This document shows, piece after piece, positions 31,135 through 38,821 of a DNA stretch of 64,000 nucleotides (position 1 is its first letter; each line of letters opens with the position of its first letter). A model generated the notes under the pieces. It did not search any database, was not told where the DNA came from, and worked only from the letters and a program-made list of their open reading frames with translations. The stretch covers positions 3,844,001-3,908,000 of the forward strand of contig NZ_CP025624.1 in assembly GCF_002874965.1 (NCBI RefSeq), read 5' to 3'. Both the position numbers and the translations under genes were made by a program. The DNA comes from Pseudomonas sp. NC02 (lineage in GTDB: Bacteria; Pseudomonadota; Gammaproteobacteria; Pseudomonadales; Pseudomonadaceae).

Positions 31135-31277
31135 GGGGCTCCTGCGGGGTTCGGGTTCTGCAAAAAAGAACGATTATGGGCGAAAGCCGGCGTTACACAA
31201 AATCCTTTGTCGCCGCAAACCCCAGACGACAACGGTTCTCAGCCCCCTTCCCGGCTGTAAAAGGCTATGCTCGGACC

Positions 31278-32264
31278 ATGACCCTGTTCCCTGATTTGCA
31301 GCACCTGCCCCGCCAACTGCGTCACCCCGAGGTGCGCGATCTCGCGTGGGTGATGCTCGCCCCGCCGATGCTCGCGCAAACGCCGTGGCCACAACGCCAC
31401 CCGCTGACCGGCAGCGACTGGGTGCAGGCCCCGCATTTGCTGGAGCAGTGGCTGCGCCAGCTGGACCAGGACAGCAGTGCCTTGCTGCATTGGCTGAGCC
31501 AGGCACGCACCCGCCGGCTGGGGTTGTATTACGAACGGCTGTGGCAATTCGCCGTGCAGCATGCGCCGGGCGTGGAGCTGCTGGCGGCCAACCTGCCGAT
31601 CCGCCAGGCCGGGCATACCCTGGGCGAGCTGGACATGCTGCTGCGCGACCGTGACGGTGTGCATCATCTGGAACTGGCGATCAAACTCTACCTCGGGCCC
31701 CAGGACGGTAATGGCCGGGACACCGCGCAATGGCTCGGCCCCGGCTGTCATGACCGGCTCGACCGCAAGCTGGCGCACCTGGCCCAGCACCAACTGCCGA
31801 TTTCCGCCCGGCCGGAGAGCCGCGAAGTCCTGGCCGCGCTCGATATCCAGGCTTTTGATGCCCATCTGTGGCTGGGCGGGTATCTGCTCTACCCATGGCC
31901 GGGCATGGCGCAGGCCCCCCAGGGCGCGCATCCCCAACACCTGAATGGCCGCTGGCTGCATCAGCGCGATTGGTCGAGGTTTATCGAGCAAAGCCCGGCA
32001 GGACGCTGGCAACCGCTGCCCCGCCACGCATGGCTGGCGCCGGCGCACTACCCGGCAGACGAAGCCTGGGACGCGGCCCGGATGCAGCACTGGCTAACCG
32101 AACTGGACCCCATGGCGCCCGCGCAGTTGCTGGTGCGCCTGGTGGAAAACAGCGAAGGCGAATGGGAAGAAGCCGAACGGTTGTTTCTGGTGGCGGATCT
32201 TTGGCCGAACGTGCCGGCGCTTACAGGTTATCGATATGCCGATAGTCAATCTGTAACCCCATAG
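31278..32264 (+). CDS. DUF1853 family protein
   Basis: The 328-residue soluble protein starts [26 protein letters not shown] and contains [13 protein letters not shown] followed by [11 protein letters not shown]. That arrangement recalls restriction-endonuclease-like (PD-ExK) cores, consistent with the DUF1853 family, whose function is unknown. I chose ATG 31278 because homology-like sequence starts there and the preceding in-frame stretch from 31176 is compositionally odd. Its 3' end overlaps the convergent chelatase VWA gene by 44 bases. Confidence 0.85.
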
Positions 32265-32883
32265 CCAGCTGCTTTGAACGGCCCAACCGAATCGGGCCGC
32301 GCTCGATGTCCACCAGCAAACCCGGGCAGTCCAGCGGCGGCAAACCCGCCACATCCTTCAGCCGCCCATCGGTGATCACCAGCAACCGCTGCTGCTCCAC
32401 CGGGTAACGCTTGCGACGAGCCGCCAACCAGTGCCCCGCTTCGTTCAGCGCTGCCAACAATGGCGTGCCACCGCCTGCACCGAGGCCATCAAGCCAATGA
32501 CCAAGCCCTTTTGCCGCCTTTAATCCCTGCACCTGCCACTTTGGCGATTGCCCGCTCGCGGTGAGCAACGCCATGCGCGCCCGCTGTCGATAGGCATCGT
32601 CGAACAGTTGGGCCAGTAATCCCTTGGCATCGCTAAGCGCCTGATGCCGCCGGGTGGAGGCCGAAGCATCGACAATCACCAGCCACAGCTCATGGGGCGT
32701 ACGGCTACGCAGTTGATACAGCAAATCTTCGCGGCGTTGCGGCCGCCCGCCGAGCAAGGTACCCGGCCAGTTGATCGAACCTTCGGCCGCGCTGCGCGCC
32801 TGGCCTCGCCGGCCCTTGTTCAGTCGACCCGCCTTGGGCCGTGCATCCGCCCCCGCGTCAGGTTTGGGGCGGATGCCTAGGGC
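32221..32883 (-). CDS. chlD: VWA-domain (ChlD/CobT-like) part of the cobalt chelatase, reached by -1 frameshift from chlI
   Basis: This frame encodes 220 codons after a -1 shift at 32883. It begins with a basic, Pro/Ala-rich linker ([17 protein letters not shown]) with a [10 protein letters not shown] segment, then a von Willebrand A domain with the MIDAS motif VDASAS and [10 protein letters not shown]. No ATG, GTG or TTG occurs in this frame from the upstream stop (about 32901) down to TTG 32757. Starting at that TTG would drop the basic linker typical of D-subunits, and no ribosome site is visible. Read through the frameshift, the product is a fused AAA+-linker-VWA protein of about 551 residues, the usual layout of chelatase D subunits. 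It partners with CobN and the shorter ChlI form. Confidence 0.8.
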
Positions 32884-32889
32884 TTTTTT
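32843..32889 (-). promoter_or_regulatory. Programmed -1 ribosomal frameshift signal (slippery heptamer plus stem-loop)
   Basis: On the minus strand, in the chlI frame, CCA AAA AAG CCC TAG contains the heptamer A AAA AAG (32889-32883), the slippery sequence of dnaX. After six bases, which include the in-frame stop TAG, a perfect 11-bp GC-rich stem follows (GCATCCGCCCC at 32876-32866 with GGGGCGGATGC at 32853-32843, 12-base loop). A -1 slip enters exactly the VWA frame. Both elements and the spacing are canonical. Confidence 0.8.
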
Positions 32890-33875
32890 GGCCAGGTGGG
32901 CACATCACGGCGAGCACCTATCGGCAAGGCGGGTGCGGGCATGTCGCCCCATTGGCCCTGGCCTTCAGGTGCATCATTGGGCTTGGGTGATTGACCGCCA
33001 GCGGGCGGCGTTGCAGGCGGGGATTGCTCCTGACGACGATGGCGCAGGGCAAATTCCGCGACCGCTTCGATATCTTCTTCGCTGATAGCCGTCGCGCCCC
33101 GCCAGGCCGTATGGGCACGTGCGCCACGCAGCCAGACCAGGTCGGCGCGCAAGCCATCGACGCCGGCGGCAAAGCAGCGCTCGGTAATCTGCGCCAGCGC
33201 CTGGTCATCCAACGGGATGCTATCCAGCAATGCGCGGGCCCGGGTGCAACGCTCACGCAACGCGGCCTGCCGGTCGGCCCATTGCCCGCAGAAACCCTGA
33301 GGGTCGCTGTCGAAATCCAGGCGGCGACGGATGATCTGCCCGCGTTCGGCCGGCTGGGTGTGCCCGCTCAGCGCCACGTTGAAACCAAACCGGTCGAGCA
33401 ATTGCGGGCGCAGCTCGCCCTCTTCCGGGTTCATGGTGCCGATCAGTACAAAACGCGCCGAATGCCGGTGGGAAATCCCGTCGCGCTCGATCAGGTTGGT
33501 GCCGCTGGCGGCCACGTCCAGCAGCAGGTCCACCAGGTGGTCGGGCAGCAGGTTGACTTCATCGACATAGAGCACGCCGCCGTCGGCCTTGGCCAGCACG
33601 CCGGGGGAAAACTGTGCGCGGCCCTCACTGAGTGCCGCGTCCAGATCGAGTGTGCCCACCAGCCGCTCCTCGGTGGCGCCCAACGGCAGCGTGACGAACT
33701 GGCCGCTGGCGAGCAGGTCCGCCAGGCCACGGGCCAGGGTGGACTTGGCCATGCCGCGCGGGCCTTCGATCAGCACACCGCCGATTTTCGGGTCGATGGC
33801 GGTCAGGCACAGGGCCAGTTTCAAGTCGTCGGCGCCGACCACGGCGGACAGCGGGAAATGTGGAATGTCGGTCAT
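32877..33875 (-). CDS. chlI: AAA+ chelatase subunit ChlI-like (zero-frame product)
   Basis: The 332-residue AAA+ ATPase has Walker A GPRGMAKST (38-46), Walker B GGVLYVDEVNLL and the chelatase-type insert with GTMNPEEGELRPQLLDRFGF. It drives metal insertion by CobN together with a VWA subunit. The C-terminal 50 residues form a Pro/Gly/Gln linker (QSPPATPPAGGQ) ending in DVPTWPKKP, where translation stops unless the ribosome slips. A short ending in a D-type linker is what is expected if this product is the small subunit and the frameshift product is the medium one. The ATG 33875 overlaps the cobN stop (TGATG); a start at 33944 inside cobN is rejected. Confidence 0.92.
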   Translation of the reverse strand: MTDIPHFPLSAVVGADDLKLALCLTAIDPKIGGVLIEGPRGMAKSTLARGLADLLASGQFVTLPLGATEERLVGTLDLDAALSEGRAQFSPGVLAKADGGVLYVDEVNLLPDHLVDLLLDVAASGTNLIERDGISHRHSARFVLIGTMNPEEGELRPQLLDRFGFNVALSGHTQPAERGQIIRRRLDFDSDPQGFCGQWADRQAALRERCTRARALLDSIPLDDQALAQITERCFAAGVDGLRADLVWLRGARAHTAWRGATAISEEDIEAVAEFALRHRRQEQSPPATPPAGGQSPKPNDAPEGQGQWGDMPAPALPIGARRDVPTWPKKP

Positions 33876-36800
33876 CAACTGCCTTCTTCTATATCCAACA
33901 ACAGGTTTTCCAACGCCTCGCGGTACGCCCCAGGCTCCTGCCACATGCCGCGTTGCTGGGCTTCGAGCATGCGTTCGGTCATGTCCCGCAGGGCATCCGG
34001 GTTGTGCTGCTGCACAAAGGCGCGGGTGTCCGGGTCCAGCAAGTAGGCATCCGCCAGCAACGCGTATTGATGATCGTCGATCAACGCCGTCGTAGCGTCG
34101 AACGCGAACAGATTATCCACGGTGGCCGCCATCTCGAACGCGCCTTTATAGCCGTGGCGCTTCACCCCTTCGATCCACTTCGGGTTGGCCGCCCGGGCAC
34201 GAATCACCCGGTTCAACTCTTCCTTCAACGTGCGGATCTTCGGCAGGTCCGGCTGACTGTGGTCACCATGATAGCTGGCAGCCTTGTCGCCGCTCAGGGT
34301 TTCCACGGCGGCGAGCATGCCGCCCTGGAATTGGTAGTAATCATTGGAGTCCAGCAGGTCATGCTCGCGGTTGTCCTGGTTTTGCAACACCGCCTGCACC
34401 TGGCTCAAACGCTGGGCAAACTGTTCGCGGGCGGCGGTGCCTTCGTCGGAGCCGCCATAGGCGTAGCCGCCCCAGTTCAGGTAAACCTCCGCCAGGTCTT
34501 CGCGGCTCTGCCACAAGCGCCCATCAATCGCGCCCTGCACGCCGGCACCATAGGCACCGGGCTTGGCACCGAAGATCCGCCAACCAGCCTGCTTCGCCGC
34601 CGCGTCCTCGTCCAGGCCCGACAGGCGCAAGGCCTCGCGCTCACTGCGCACCTTGGCCGCCAGAGGGTTCAGGTCGTCGGGTTCGTCCAGCGCCGCCACG
34701 GCTTGCACCGCCGCATCGAACAGGCGGATCAGGTTGGCGAATGCATCGCGGAAGAATCCCGACACGCGCAAGGTCACATCCACCCGTGGCCGGTCCAGCA
34801 GGCTGATGGGCAGGATTTCAAAGTCATCCACCCGCTGGCTGCCCGTGGCCCACACCGGGCGCACGCCCATCAGCGCCATGGCCTGGGCAATGTCGTCGCC
34901 GCCGGTGCGCATGGTGGCAGTGCCCCACACCGACAGGCCGAGTTGGCGCAAGTGGTCGCCATGGTCTTGCAGGTGACGCTCAAGGATCAGGTTCGCCGAC
35001 TGGAAGCCGATGCGCCAGGCAGTGGTGGTGGGCAGGTTGCGCACATCCACCGAGAAAAAGTTGCGACCGGTGGGCAACACGTCCAGGCGGCCCCGGCTCG
35101 GCGCGCCGCTGGGCCCGGCCGGGACGAAGCGCCCGTTCAAGGCATCCAGCAACCCGCGCATTTCCGCCGGGCCGCAGGCATCCAGGCGTGGCGCGACGAC
35201 GATGCGCAAGCTCTCGATCACCGCCTTGACGTCTTCCCAGCCGGGCTCTTCAAGCTGCTCCACGGCACCTTCCAGCGCCTGCTCGATCAAGCGCGCGGCA
35301 TACAGCTCCAGGCGTTCACGGGTGTCGCCGGCGGTGCGCCACAACTGCGCGTCGATCTTCTGCAACACCACTGGCCGGCGCCCCGTCCACGGCTCGGCCA
35401 GGGCGCAGTCCAGCGGATCGAAGCCCAGGTCGAAGGCCTTGGCCAATACCCGCAGCAGGCTCGATTGCGGCCCGCGCCCATCGCCACGCGGAATACGCAA
35501 CAACGCCAGCAAGGTGTCGATGCGCAAGCGGCCCTCGGGTGACTCGCCGAAAATGTGCAGGCCATCGCGAATCTGCGACTCCTTCAAGTCACACAGGTAG
35601 GTGTCCAGGCGCGGCAGCCAGATCGCCGCATCGGCGTCGCTGTCGAGGTTTTCGTCCAGGGCCAGTTCCTGGTCGATGCGGGTTTCGCGCACCAGCTTGA
35701 GGATGTCCTTTTGCAGCTCGCGGGCACGCCGTGGGTCGAGCAGTTGTGCCTCGTAATACTCGTCGGCCAGCAACTCCAGGTCGCGCAGCGGCCCATAGGT
35801 TTCGGCGCGGGTCAGCGGCGGCATCAGGTGGTCGATGATCACGGCCTGGGTGCGGCGCTTGGCCTGGGCGCCCTCGCCCGGGTCATTGACGATAAACGGG
35901 TAGATATTCGGCAGCGGCCCCAGTAGTGCGTCGGGCCAGCAGTTCTCGGAAAGCCCGACGCCCTTGCCCGGCAGCCATTCCAGGTTGCCGTGCTTGCCAA
36001 CGTGGATCACGCCGTGGGCGCCGTAGGTGTGGCGCAACCAGAAGTAGAACGCCAGGTAACCGTGGGGCGGCACCAGGTCCGGGTCGTGATAGACCGCACT
36101 CGCGTCCACCTGGTAACCCCGGGCCGGCTGGATGCCGACGAAGGTCAGGCTCAAACGCAGGCCCGCGATCATCATGCGCCCGTCGCGGAACATCGGATCG
36201 CTATGAGGTGTACCCCAGCGTGCCAACACGGCCTGGCGATTGGACTCGGGCAAGCGGTTGAACATAGCCTCGTAGTCATCCAGCGCCAGGCTCTGATGAC
36301 ACGGACGCAAGTCGAGGCTGTCCAGGTCGTTGCTGACGCCGCCCAAGAGCGCCTGGATCAGTGCCGTTCCGCTTTCCGGCAGCTCGTCCGGCAGCGGATA
36401 ACCTTGGATTTTGAGTGCCCGCAGGATATTCAGCGCGGCGGCTGGGGTGTCTAGACCCACGCCGTTGCCGATACGTCCGTCCCGGGTCGGGTAGTTGGCG
36501 AGGATCAGCGCGATACGCTTTTCGCCATTCGGCACGCGCGCCAGTTCGACCCAGCGCCGCGCCAGTTCGGCGACAAAGTCCATGCGCTCCGGCTGTGCGC
36601 GATAGCACACCACATCCGACTGGCTGCGCTCACTGCGCCAGGCCAGGTCCTTGAAGCTGATGGGCCGGCTGATGATGCGCCCGTCCAGTTCCGGCAACGC
36701 GATGTGCATCGCCAGGTCACGTGGGCCGAGGCCTTGCTCGCTGGCCTGCCAGCCGGGCTCGTTGTCCTGGGCGCAAATCGCCTGGATCACCGGAATATTG

Positions 36801-37648
36801 CGGCGAAACGGCCGCAGGTGCGGCGCTTCGGGGCTGGACTGGGCAAAACCGGTGGTGTTCAGAATCACCGAGGCGTGCACCTCGTCCAGCAAATCCTCGA
36901 CCACGGTCAGGCAGCCGGGCTCTTTCAAACTGGCCACCGCCATCGGCAGCGGGTTGAGACCCGCGGCCTGCAAGCGCTGGCAAAAAACATCGATAAAGCC
37001 GGTGTTGGCCGCCTGCAAATGGGAGCGGTAGAACAGCACCGCCGCCACGGGAAAATCAGCTTGCCAGTCAGCCTGCCAATCGTTGAGGCGGGCATTGGCT
37101 TTATGCGGGTGATAAATCGCCGTGCGTGGCAGGGTTTGCGGCTCGCTCCAGGCGTAATCGCGGCCAAGGTAGCCGGCGGCCAGGCAACGATAGAAATCCA
37201 GCGCATTCCCCAAACCACCCTGGCGCAGGAAGTGCCAGAGCCGGTCACGCTCCTCGGCGCCCACGGTGCTGAGGCCACTGAGTTCCGGGTCCGGGCGATC
37301 ATCCCCCGGCACCAGGATCAGCTGCACGCCGCGCTCGGCCAACTCCACCAGGCGCTCGATACCGTAGCGCCAATAACCGATGCCGCCGTGCAGCGAAATC
37401 AGGATGACCTTGGCGTGGCGCAGCACCTCATCCACATACAGGTCGACCGAAGCATGGTTCTGCACCTGCATCGGGTTGGCCAGGCGCAGGCTCGGGTAAT
37501 CCTCGGGCAACTGCTGGGCCGCTTCGGCCAGCAGCGCCAGGCTGGAATCACCGCTGCACAGGATCACCAGCTCGGCGGGGGTTTGCCCAAGGTCGGCGAT
37601 GTTGTCATCCGAAACGAAACCGCCGGGCTGGGTCCTGAGCAGATGCAT
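33875..37648 (-). CDS. cobN: Cobaltochelatase large subunit CobN
   Basis: The 1,257-residue catalytic subunit inserts Co2+ into hydrogenobyrinate diamide in aerobic B12 synthesis. Typical CobN/BchH stretches are present: YWRYGIERLVELAERG near residue 70, LANYPTRDGRIGNGVGLDTP in the middle, GNLEWLPGKGVGLSENCWPD, and a C-terminal VDNLFAFDATTALI. Length is normal. It begins 3 bases after the cobW stop and overlaps chlI by one base. The order cobW-cobN-chlI-chlD behind a cobalamin riboswitch makes a self-contained chelatase operon. Confidence 0.96.
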   Translation of the reverse strand: MHLLRTQPGGFVSDDNIADLGQTPAELVILCSGDSSLALLAEAAQQLPEDYPSLRLANPMQVQNHASVDLYVDEVLRHAKVILISLHGGIGYWRYGIERLVELAERGVQLILVPGDDRPDPELSGLSTVGAEERDRLWHFLRQGGLGNALDFYRCLAAGYLGRDYAWSEPQTLPRTAIYHPHKANARLNDWQADWQADFPVAAVLFYRSHLQAANTGFIDVFCQRLQAAGLNPLPMAVASLKEPGCLTVVEDLLDEVHASVILNTTGFAQSSPEAPHLRPFRRNIPVIQAICAQDNEPGWQASEQGLGPRDLAMHIALPELDGRIISRPISFKDLAWRSERSQSDVVCYRAQPERMDFVAELARRWVELARVPNGEKRIALILANYPTRDGRIGNGVGLDTPAAALNILRALKIQGYPLPDELPESGTALIQALLGGVSNDLDSLDLRPCHQSLALDDYEAMFNRLPESNRQAVLARWGTPHSDPMFRDGRMMIAGLRLSLTFVGIQPARGYQVDASAVYHDPDLVPPHGYLAFYFWLRHTYGAHGVIHVGKHGNLEWLPGKGVGLSENCWPDALLGPLPNIYPFIVNDPGEGAQAKRRTQAVIIDHLMPPLTRAETYGPLRDLELLADEYYEAQLLDPRRARELQKDILKLVRETRIDQELALDENLDSDADAAIWLPRLDTYLCDLKESQIRDGLHIFGESPEGRLRIDTLLALLRIPRGDGRGPQSSLLRVLAKAFDLGFDPLDCALAEPWTGRRPVVLQKIDAQLWRTAGDTRERLELYAARLIEQALEGAVEQLEEPGWEDVKAVIESLRIVVAPRLDACGPAEMRGLLDALNGRFVPAGPSGAPSRGRLDVLPTGRNFFSVDVRNLPTTTAWRIGFQSANLILERHLQDHGDHLRQLGLSVWGTATMRTGGDDIAQAMALMGVRPVWATGSQRVDDFEILPISLLDRPRVDVTLRVSGFFRDAFANLIRLFDAAVQAVAALDEPDDLNPLAAKVRSEREALRLSGLDEDAAAKQAGWRIFGAKPGAYGAGVQGAIDGRLWQSREDLAEVYLNWGGYAYGGSDEGTAAREQFAQRLSQVQAVLQNQDNREHDLLDSNDYYQFQGGMLAAVETLSGDKAASYHGDHSQPDLPKIRTLKEELNRVIRARAANPKWIEGVKRHGYKGAFEMAATVDNLFAFDATTALIDDHQYALLADAYLLDPDTRAFVQQHNPDALRDMTERMLEAQQRGMWQEPGAYREALENLLLDIEEGS

Positions 37649-37651
37649 GGT

Positions 37652-38713
37652 TTAAACGCTGAGGGCAGCGCGCAGTTGCGCTTCGAGCAAGGCGGCGTCG
37701 AGTTCCTGGCCGATCAGCACCAGGTGCGTGGCGCGCGGCTCATCGGCGCGCCAGGCGCGGTCGAAGTGCTTGTCGAAACGCGTGCCCACGCCCTGGATCA
37801 GCAGGCGCATCGGTTTGTTCGGGATCGCCGCGAAGCCCTTGACCCGCAGGATGCCGTGCTTGACCACCAGTTGGGTCAGGGCGTCCAGCAGCAGGCTTTC
37901 GTCGGCCTGGGGCAGTTCGATGGAGATGGAGTCGAAGGCATCGTGGTCGTGGTCGTCTTCACCTTCGTGGTGATGATCGTGATGGCTGTGGCGGCCATCG
38001 ATGTGTTCTTCCGAGCCCGCGCCCAGGCCGATCAATACGTCCAGCGGCAGGCGACCGCTGCTGGCTTCGATGATTTTTACCGCCGGCGGCAGTTCTTCTG
38101 CCACTTCCAGGCGCACACGGGCCAGGTCTTCAGGGCTGATCAGGTCGGACTTGTTGAGGATCACCAGGTCGGCGCTGGCCAGTTGGTCAGCGAACAGCTC
38201 GTGCAGGGGGGATTCGTGGTCCAGGTTCGGGTCGAGCTTGCGCTGGGCGTCAACCTGGTCCGGGAAGGCGGCGAACGTGCCGGCGGCCACGGCCGGGCTG
38301 TCGACCACGGTGATCACGGCGTCAACGGTGCAGGCGCTGCGGATTTCCGGCCACTGGAACGCCTGGACCAAGGGTTTTGGCAGGGCCAGGCCCGAGGTTT
38401 CGATGAGGATATGGTCGAGGTCGCCGCGACGGGCCACCAGTTCGCGCATCACCGGGAAGAACTCTTCCTGGACCGTGCAGCACAGGCAGCCATTGGCCAA
38501 TTCGTAGACGCGGCCGTTCGCCTCTTCTTCGGTACAGCCGATGGAGCATTGCTTGAGGATTTCACCGTCAATGCCCAGCTCGCCGAACTCGTTGACGATC
38601 ACCGCGATGCGGCGCCCCTGGGCGTTATCCAGCATGTGGCGCAGCAAGGTGGTCTTGCCCGAGCCGAGGAAGCCGGTAACGATGGTGACGGGGAGTTTGG
38701 CCAGTGTTTTCAT
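37652..38713 (-). CDS. cobW: CobW-type GTP-dependent metal chaperone
   Basis: The 353-residue G3E GTPase has the P-loop GFLGSGKTTLL (14-24), the metal-binding CLCC motif in LANGCLCCTVQEEF, and SGLALPKPL. A histidine-rich loop (around residue 245, RHSHHDHHHEGEDDHDHD) and a C-terminal CobW_C domain follow. It likely delivers cobalt to CobN. ATG 38713 is chosen because the P-loop is then at the usual distance, AAGGG lies upstream, and the region further upstream belongs to the riboswitch leader. Riboswitch control is expected. Confidence 0.94.
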   Translation of the reverse strand: MKTLAKLPVTIVTGFLGSGKTTLLRHMLDNAQGRRIAVIVNEFGELGIDGEILKQCSIGCTEEEANGRVYELANGCLCCTVQEEFFPVMRELVARRGDLDHILIETSGLALPKPLVQAFQWPEIRSACTVDAVITVVDSPAVAAGTFAAFPDQVDAQRKLDPNLDHESPLHELFADQLASADLVILNKSDLISPEDLARVRLEVAEELPPAVKIIEASSGRLPLDVLIGLGAGSEEHIDGRHSHHDHHHEGEDDHDHDAFDSISIELPQADESLLLDALTQLVVKHGILRVKGFAAIPNKPMRLLIQGVGTRFDKHFDRAWRADEPRATHLVLIGQELDAALLEAQLRAALSV

Positions 38714-38716
38714 CGG

Positions 38717-38736
38717 ATGCCCTTTGGGGCGGGCAT
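38717..38736 (-). promoter_or_regulatory. Hairpin sequestering the cobW ribosome-binding site
   Basis: On the minus strand ATGCCC and GGGCAT pair, with AAGGG of the Shine-Dalgarno lying in and next to the 3' arm, a few bases before ATG 38713. It could be the expression platform of the upstream riboswitch by blocking initiation. Confidence 0.45.
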
Positions 38737-38821
38737 ACGGGACGAGTGGCCCTGCGCGGGTGCGCAGGAGCAGAATTCGCCACCGGATCACCCCGCCCGG
38801 TTGAAGTAGAAAATCGGTTGC

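Follow-up and report, generated by a model that had tools for sequence, protein, structure and literature searches.

The closest described relatives of the locus considered here are the fs-chlD genes of cobaltochelatase, reportedly also the subject of Antonov et al. in 2020 (Mol Biol Evol). Another parallel is offered by dnaX of Escherichia coli, in which an A-rich heptamer followed by a downstream stem lets a single gene make an AAA+ protein in two forms, the frameshift product being the shorter one. With respect to chlD, a 2013 study describes a cluster of 23 genes with -1 frameshifts and names Pseudomonas as one of the six genera represented in it (PMC3711429). Three members of the family with 11, 9 and 7 A residues were found in that study to shift frame in E. 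coli with efficiencies of 63, 40 and 10%, respectively (PMC3711429), whereas the 65 junctions discussed below have six A and a G. A 2016 review, in the text devoted to the Pseudomonas genes of the fs-chlD kind, gives A_AAA_AAR as their shift site and prints the stem of P. protegens (PMC5009743), and a 2022 paper cites P. aeruginosa as an example in which chlD frameshifting allows both cobaltochelatase subunits to be produced (PMC9227772). The preliminary description of the present DNA was right in stating that chlD frameshifting had been reported, and this applies to Pseudomonas itself according to all three sources (PMC3711429, PMC5009743, PMC9227772). A programmed frameshift in Pseudomonas chlD is already known, and the gene described here is a conserved member of this group; the literature searched contained nothing on the gene of this particular species and no measurement of a Pseudomonas cassette with six A and a G. 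The elements added here consist of a covariation count, the constant A preceding the heptamer and a small comparison of CobN occurrence.

The gene occupies the minus strand of a window of 64,000 nucleotides from Pseudomonas sp. NC02 (contig NZ_CP025624.1, positions 3,844,001 to 3,908,000), all coordinates given below being those of the window. The chlI-like open reading frame of the 0 frame (32877..33875) starts with an ATG at 33875, comprises 332 codons encoding a putative AAA+ small subunit, and ends with CCA AAA AAG CCC TAG, read as P K K P and stop after a W. As previously claimed, this 3' end contains the slippery heptamer A_AAA_AAG (32889-32883, minus strand; 32883..32889), in phase for a -1 slippage (A AAA AAG), and the UAG stop (32877..32879) occurs one codon (CCC) beyond it. 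From 32883, the -1 frame remains open for 220 codons, through a basic linker and a VWA region, up to a stop codon which ends at 32221 (32221..32883), whereas upstream it is closed by a UGA located seven codons before the shift site. The earliest ATG, GTG or TTG of this frame is the TTG at 32757, its codon 43, again in agreement with the preliminary description. Joined at the heptamer, the two frames give a product of 551 residues with the junction PTWPKK-ALGIR. The heptamer alone is not rare, since AAAAAAG occurs 10 times on both strands of the window; among the 10, the chlI copy alone combines a position one codon before the end of a long 0 frame (408 codons from stop to site) with a long -1 frame (220 codons) beyond the site. 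A search of Rfam over 31500-34500 gave a sole match, located away from the shift site and below threshold (21.6 bits for a threshold of 37). At its 3' end, the chelatase gene (32221-33875, minus strand) is overlapped over 44 bases by a convergent DUF1853 gene (31176-32264, plus strand; 353.1 bits).

Six bases after the heptamer, the spacer being CCCUAG, begins the 5' arm (32866..32876) of a perfect predicted stem of 11 Watson-Crick pairs, the 3' arm of which (32843..32853) is separated from it by a loop of 12 nt (32854-32865); the stem announced earlier was accordingly recovered, 32876-32866 pairing with 32853-32843. The locus thus combines an AAA+ domain in frame 0 with a VWA domain in frame -1, an A-rich site in phase before the 0-frame stop, a downstream RNA structure seen both as a predicted fold and through covariation, and a CobN unaccompanied by a separate small-subunit gene, all of them features by which fs-chlD genes are recognized. 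It shares with these genes the genus, the direction of the frameshift, the A_AAA_AAR site, the downstream stem, the order of the AAA+ and VWA domains and the CobN partner, without any difference of substance, and represents one more species; its stem region coincides with the printed P. protegens sequence at 33 of 42 positions (PMC5009743). By comparison with the E. coli dnaX gene, no Shine-Dalgarno-like stimulator is discernible by eye in the 30 bases preceding the site. The frameshift product predicted here would be the longer form, unlike that of dnaX.

The assignment of the two halves rests on profile matches. The 0-frame product matches the Pfam families AAA_lid_2 (E 9.8e-17) and AAA_5 (E 7.8e-14), and contains the segments GPRGMAKST and VLYVDEVN, which we take to be the Walker A and Walker B motifs. 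The VWA domain (32365..32682, minus strand) corresponds to residues 68-173 of the -1 part and matches PF13519 (VWA_2) with 33.8 bits for a cut-off of 27; the segments DASAS, GGGTPL and ITDGR of this part presumably form the metal-site motif. Among the NCBIfam models, the joined protein is best matched by TIGR02442, a putative cobaltochelatase (471.6 bits, under the cut-off of 779.45), ahead of the magnesium chelatase models I and D, TIGR02030 and TIGR02031 (331.0 and 278.0 bits, with cut-offs of 466.95 and 499.55, respectively). The 0-frame product taken separately scores 408.8 bits with TIGR02442 and 333.7 bits with TIGR02030, both below the cut-offs, and the -1 part matches the C-terminal part of TIGR02442 with an E-value of 1.1e-18. 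Since TIGR02442 is the best match for both parts and for their join but remains under its cut-off, the predicted gene is a divergent relative of this model.

The gene of the large cobaltochelatase subunit, cobN (33875..37648, minus strand; TIGR02257 1736.5 bits, cut-off 822.05), directly precedes chlI, its UGA stop sharing one base with the chlI ATG (TGATG; the A of 33875), and is itself preceded by cobW (37652..38791, minus strand; TIGR02475 530.9 bits, cut-off 332.1). In the whole genome, a single CobN and a single strong ChlI match were found, the runner-up of the latter reaching only an E-value of 6.3e-7, and neither the CobS nor the CobT model gave any match. When this genome was searched for VWA domains, the VWA part of the gene itself was not recovered, so that searches of this kind can miss. 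At the level of the genus, ChlI is matched at E <= 1e-40 in 189 of 199 Pseudomonas genomes. Six of the ten ChlI-negative genomes also gave no CobN match, and the four others (G060, G082, G180, G185) possess a divergent CobN-like protein, scoring below the cut-off, encoded by open frames of 1445-1491 codons. CobN was found in all six ChlI-positive Pseudomonas genomes that were checked (G000, G034, G176, G411-G413), in three pieces in G034, and a co-occurrence of CobN and ChlI in Pseudomonas is suggested by these six genomes rather than by a genus-wide count.

To follow the junction among relatives, a first set was built from the best 80 loci of one scan of public genomes, a choice biased to close relatives. 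Nine in-frame fusions and three contigs ending before the junction (L049, L062, L066) were left out, and the remaining 68 loci together with the window provided 69 junctions. All 69 are in phase for a -1 shift. The heptamer reads AAAAAAG in 65 of them and contains seven A in the four others, which belong to Caballeronia. The 65 AAAAAAG junctions come from records titled Pseudomonas, from one record each of Paucimonas, Pantoea and Pseudomonadaceae, and from the window. In all 65, the Lys-Lys pair is encoded by AAA-AAG, for an AAA:AAG ratio of 108:180 elsewhere in their ChlI frames. The preceding codon is CCA in 58 junctions, GCA in five, ACA in one and CTA in one, and hence ends in A throughout, for a share of CCA among the Pro codons elsewhere in these ChlI frames of 158/1485. 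Because this codon changes its amino acid yet keeps its final A next to a constant AAA-AAG, the constraint at the candidate shift site acts on nucleotides and not only on protein. The 19-mer AAAAAAGCCCTAGGCATCC is present in 49 of 398 Pseudomonas genomes, a count of the exact string only, which understates the distribution of the shift site. Beyond the junction, the VWA part shows 54-90% protein identity in those Pseudomonas loci that yielded it, apart from L075 with 33%. Some of the record titles deserve a comment: the Paucimonas bin (L048) and Pantoea Cy-639 (L058) possess ChlI genes with 77% and 76% identity to that of the window and look like Pseudomonas, and the species label of P. viridiflava p1.F2 (L007) is doubtful, its identity being 90% for 79% in another P. 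viridiflava (L044).

The downstream structure was evaluated by folding and by base-pair covariation. Depending on the stretch folded, the z-score of the window sequence is -5.3 (62 nt starting at the stem; none of 200 shuffles as good), -3.5 (141 nt around the shift site; 1 of 200 shuffles as good) or -2.1 (55 nt after the heptamer). On this last stretch, the 69 junctions of the first set give a mean of -2.8, with values below -2 in 50 of them and no such value in 19. Covariation was counted over 44 of the 65 AAAAAAG junctions, picked for possessing the stem type of the window (with a TAG stop, or TAA in L027). Of the 616 cells of this count, 603 are paired, and a displacement of the 3' arm by 1-3 bases leaves 213-323. 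One stem pair reads C-G in 13 of these junctions, U-G in 12 and U-A in 19, and never C-A; its 3' side changed three times by parsimony on a ChlI tree, with a G/A exchange that converts GAT (Asp) into AAT (Asn) in the linker. The other 21 AAAAAAG junctions, 18 of them with a TGA together with L050, L054 and L068 (cut by a contig end shortly past the junction), were counted in the same register, where 186 of 294 cells pair, for 76-154 when slid. They retain between 3 and 11 of the 14 window-type pairs per sequence, in shorter, bulged or altered stems. These 186 paired cells indicate that a predicted stem exists widely across the junctions, its upper part having been remade. The remark of the 2016 review, in its treatment of these genes, that the sequence of the downstream structure is not strongly conserved agrees with these counts (PMC5009743). 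A second hairpin following the stem varied between the folds of the 69 junctions and is not claimed.

Taken together, the anatomy of the junction, the conservation of heptamer, phase and stem, the base-pair covariation and the gene content make it highly probable that a programmed -1 frameshift allows a single fs-chlD gene to produce aerobic cobaltochelatase subunits of 332 and 551 residues, and the comparison of heptamer and stem across Pseudomonas excludes chance. The proposal that one gene encodes both a 332-residue ChlI and a 551-residue ChlD finds support, at the sequence level, in this conservation, in the CobN neighbour and in the gene content. Ribosomes translating the cobN-chlI message would reach A_AAA_AAG, and those keeping their frame would meet the UAG two codons further on and release the AAA+ small subunit. 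A fraction of the ribosomes, held by the GC-rich stem six bases downstream, would slip back by one base while reading the Lys-Lys pair of codons and proceed in the -1 frame, to produce a medium subunit made of the same AAA+ part extended by the linker and the VWA domain. Small and medium subunits would finally join CobN for the insertion of cobalt during B12 synthesis. By analogy with the published work on the family, we infer slippage at the window site, as well as its rate and the action of both products with CobN, and the ratio of the subunits in the cell would presumably be set by this slippage. The counts and the covariation collected across Pseudomonas support the published case in which programmed frameshifting provides a B12 enzyme with two subunits from one gene, and this mode of expression would explain the absence of a good separate start codon in the VWA half. 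It also matters for annotation, since mechanical ORF calling splits the medium subunit in two, a point which the 2013 study also makes about RefSeq (PMC3711429).

A further role may be considered for the stem, which retains its pairing even at the cost of a changed linker residue: its stability would respond to the level of a divalent metal or a corrinoid and turn the shift rate into a sensor. The 2016 review raises triplex formation and the binding of divalent cations as a possibility (PMC5009743). Such a sensor, which we regard as unlikely, would tune the ratio of small to medium subunit to the cobalt supply.

A distinct and decidedly improbable explanation involves a slippage of RNA polymerase on the A-run, which would produce some mRNAs with both frames joined. 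Six A are short for a transcriptional slippage, and a tandem tRNA slippage, unlike that of a polymerase, needs a heptamer placed in phase and ending in G as well as the covarying stem. The shift site is nevertheless an A-run, and the efficiency rose with the length of the A-run in the tests of the 2013 study (PMC3711429).

Even less probable is an expression of the VWA part as a separate gene, translated by re-initiation after the ChlI stop. An ATG, GTG or TTG occurs among the 36 initial codons of the -1 part in 26 of the 65 junctions, and a Shine-Dalgarno-like stretch precedes such a VWA start in four of them (L030, L046, L064, L075); but 39 of the 65 lack any of these codons there, 45 lack ATG and GTG, and the window itself offers nothing before its late TTG. 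Re-initiation also leaves unexplained both the covarying stem and the in-phase heptamer, which is present as well in the four junctions with a Shine-Dalgarno-like stretch. An error of sequencing, or the decay of a gene split between its two domains, has a negligible probability and is already refuted at the family level, as judged from the identical arrangement of the frames in 65 of 65 Pseudomonas-like junctions and from the conserved protein sequence of the VWA part, the only points in its favour being two broken-looking relatives (G080 and G034), with nothing specific to the window.

Both relatives came from a second set, composed of 16 of the 189 ChlI-positive genomes picked for their weak scores, or for a long open frame in the case of G176; since G076 ends before the junction, 15 junctions were read, and this set may overlap the first one in species, so that the counts were not summed. 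AAAAAAG occurs in 13 of these 15 junctions. In G080 and G034 the exact heptamer is missing, and the other broken frames within each locus make assembly error or decay a likely cause of both exceptions. The comparison of Pseudomonas orthologues suggested in the preliminary description is in keeping with a programmed frameshift: among the junctions read other than G080 and G034, no orthologue lacking heptamer and stem and provided with a normal VWA start was encountered, and none of the junctions read was an in-frame ChlI-VWA fusion from Pseudomonas. In G176 (L143, G176:C1:2217545-2222287), cobN and chlI lie in one open frame of 1582 codons, followed by a preserved frameshift site, and the predicted product may be a fusion of CobN with the small subunit.

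In other proteobacteria, ChlD-type genes fused in frame account for nine of the best 80 loci (Motiliproteus, Neptuniibacter, Psychromonas, Marinomonas and three metagenome bins). Like the window gene, they encode the AAA+ and then the VWA domain in one protein, but within one open frame instead of a frame 0 and a frame -1. Five of their genomes (G399-G402, G404; loci L072, L073, L074, L077, L081), some of which are drafts or metagenome bins, match CobN, in two pieces in G401, and gave no CobT match and no second strong ChlI; CobS reaches at best an E-value of 1.1e-4 in G399 and 1.2e-8 in G404, and has no match in G400-G402. CobS and CobT are both matched in the four other fused-gene genomes (G398, G403, G405, G406), and also in the four genomes of Caballeronia that carry a frameshift gene (G407-G410), strongly in three of them and distantly in one. 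The tie between the frameshift and missing CobS and CobT consequently fails in Caballeronia, where these subunits have candidate sources other than the frameshift gene. The four genomes, in which the frameshift chlD contains seven A (L076, L078, L079, L083), may thus possess two sets of chelatase subunits. A reverse arrangement similar to that of dnaX, with a short product made by slippage, was looked for in the nine fused loci and rejected, as no XXXYYYZ heptamer in the -1 phase is common to them. Runs of six A occur in another phase in L071, L073, L077, L080 and L084, and the last of these also contains nine consecutive A, after which the -1 frame soon meets a stop.
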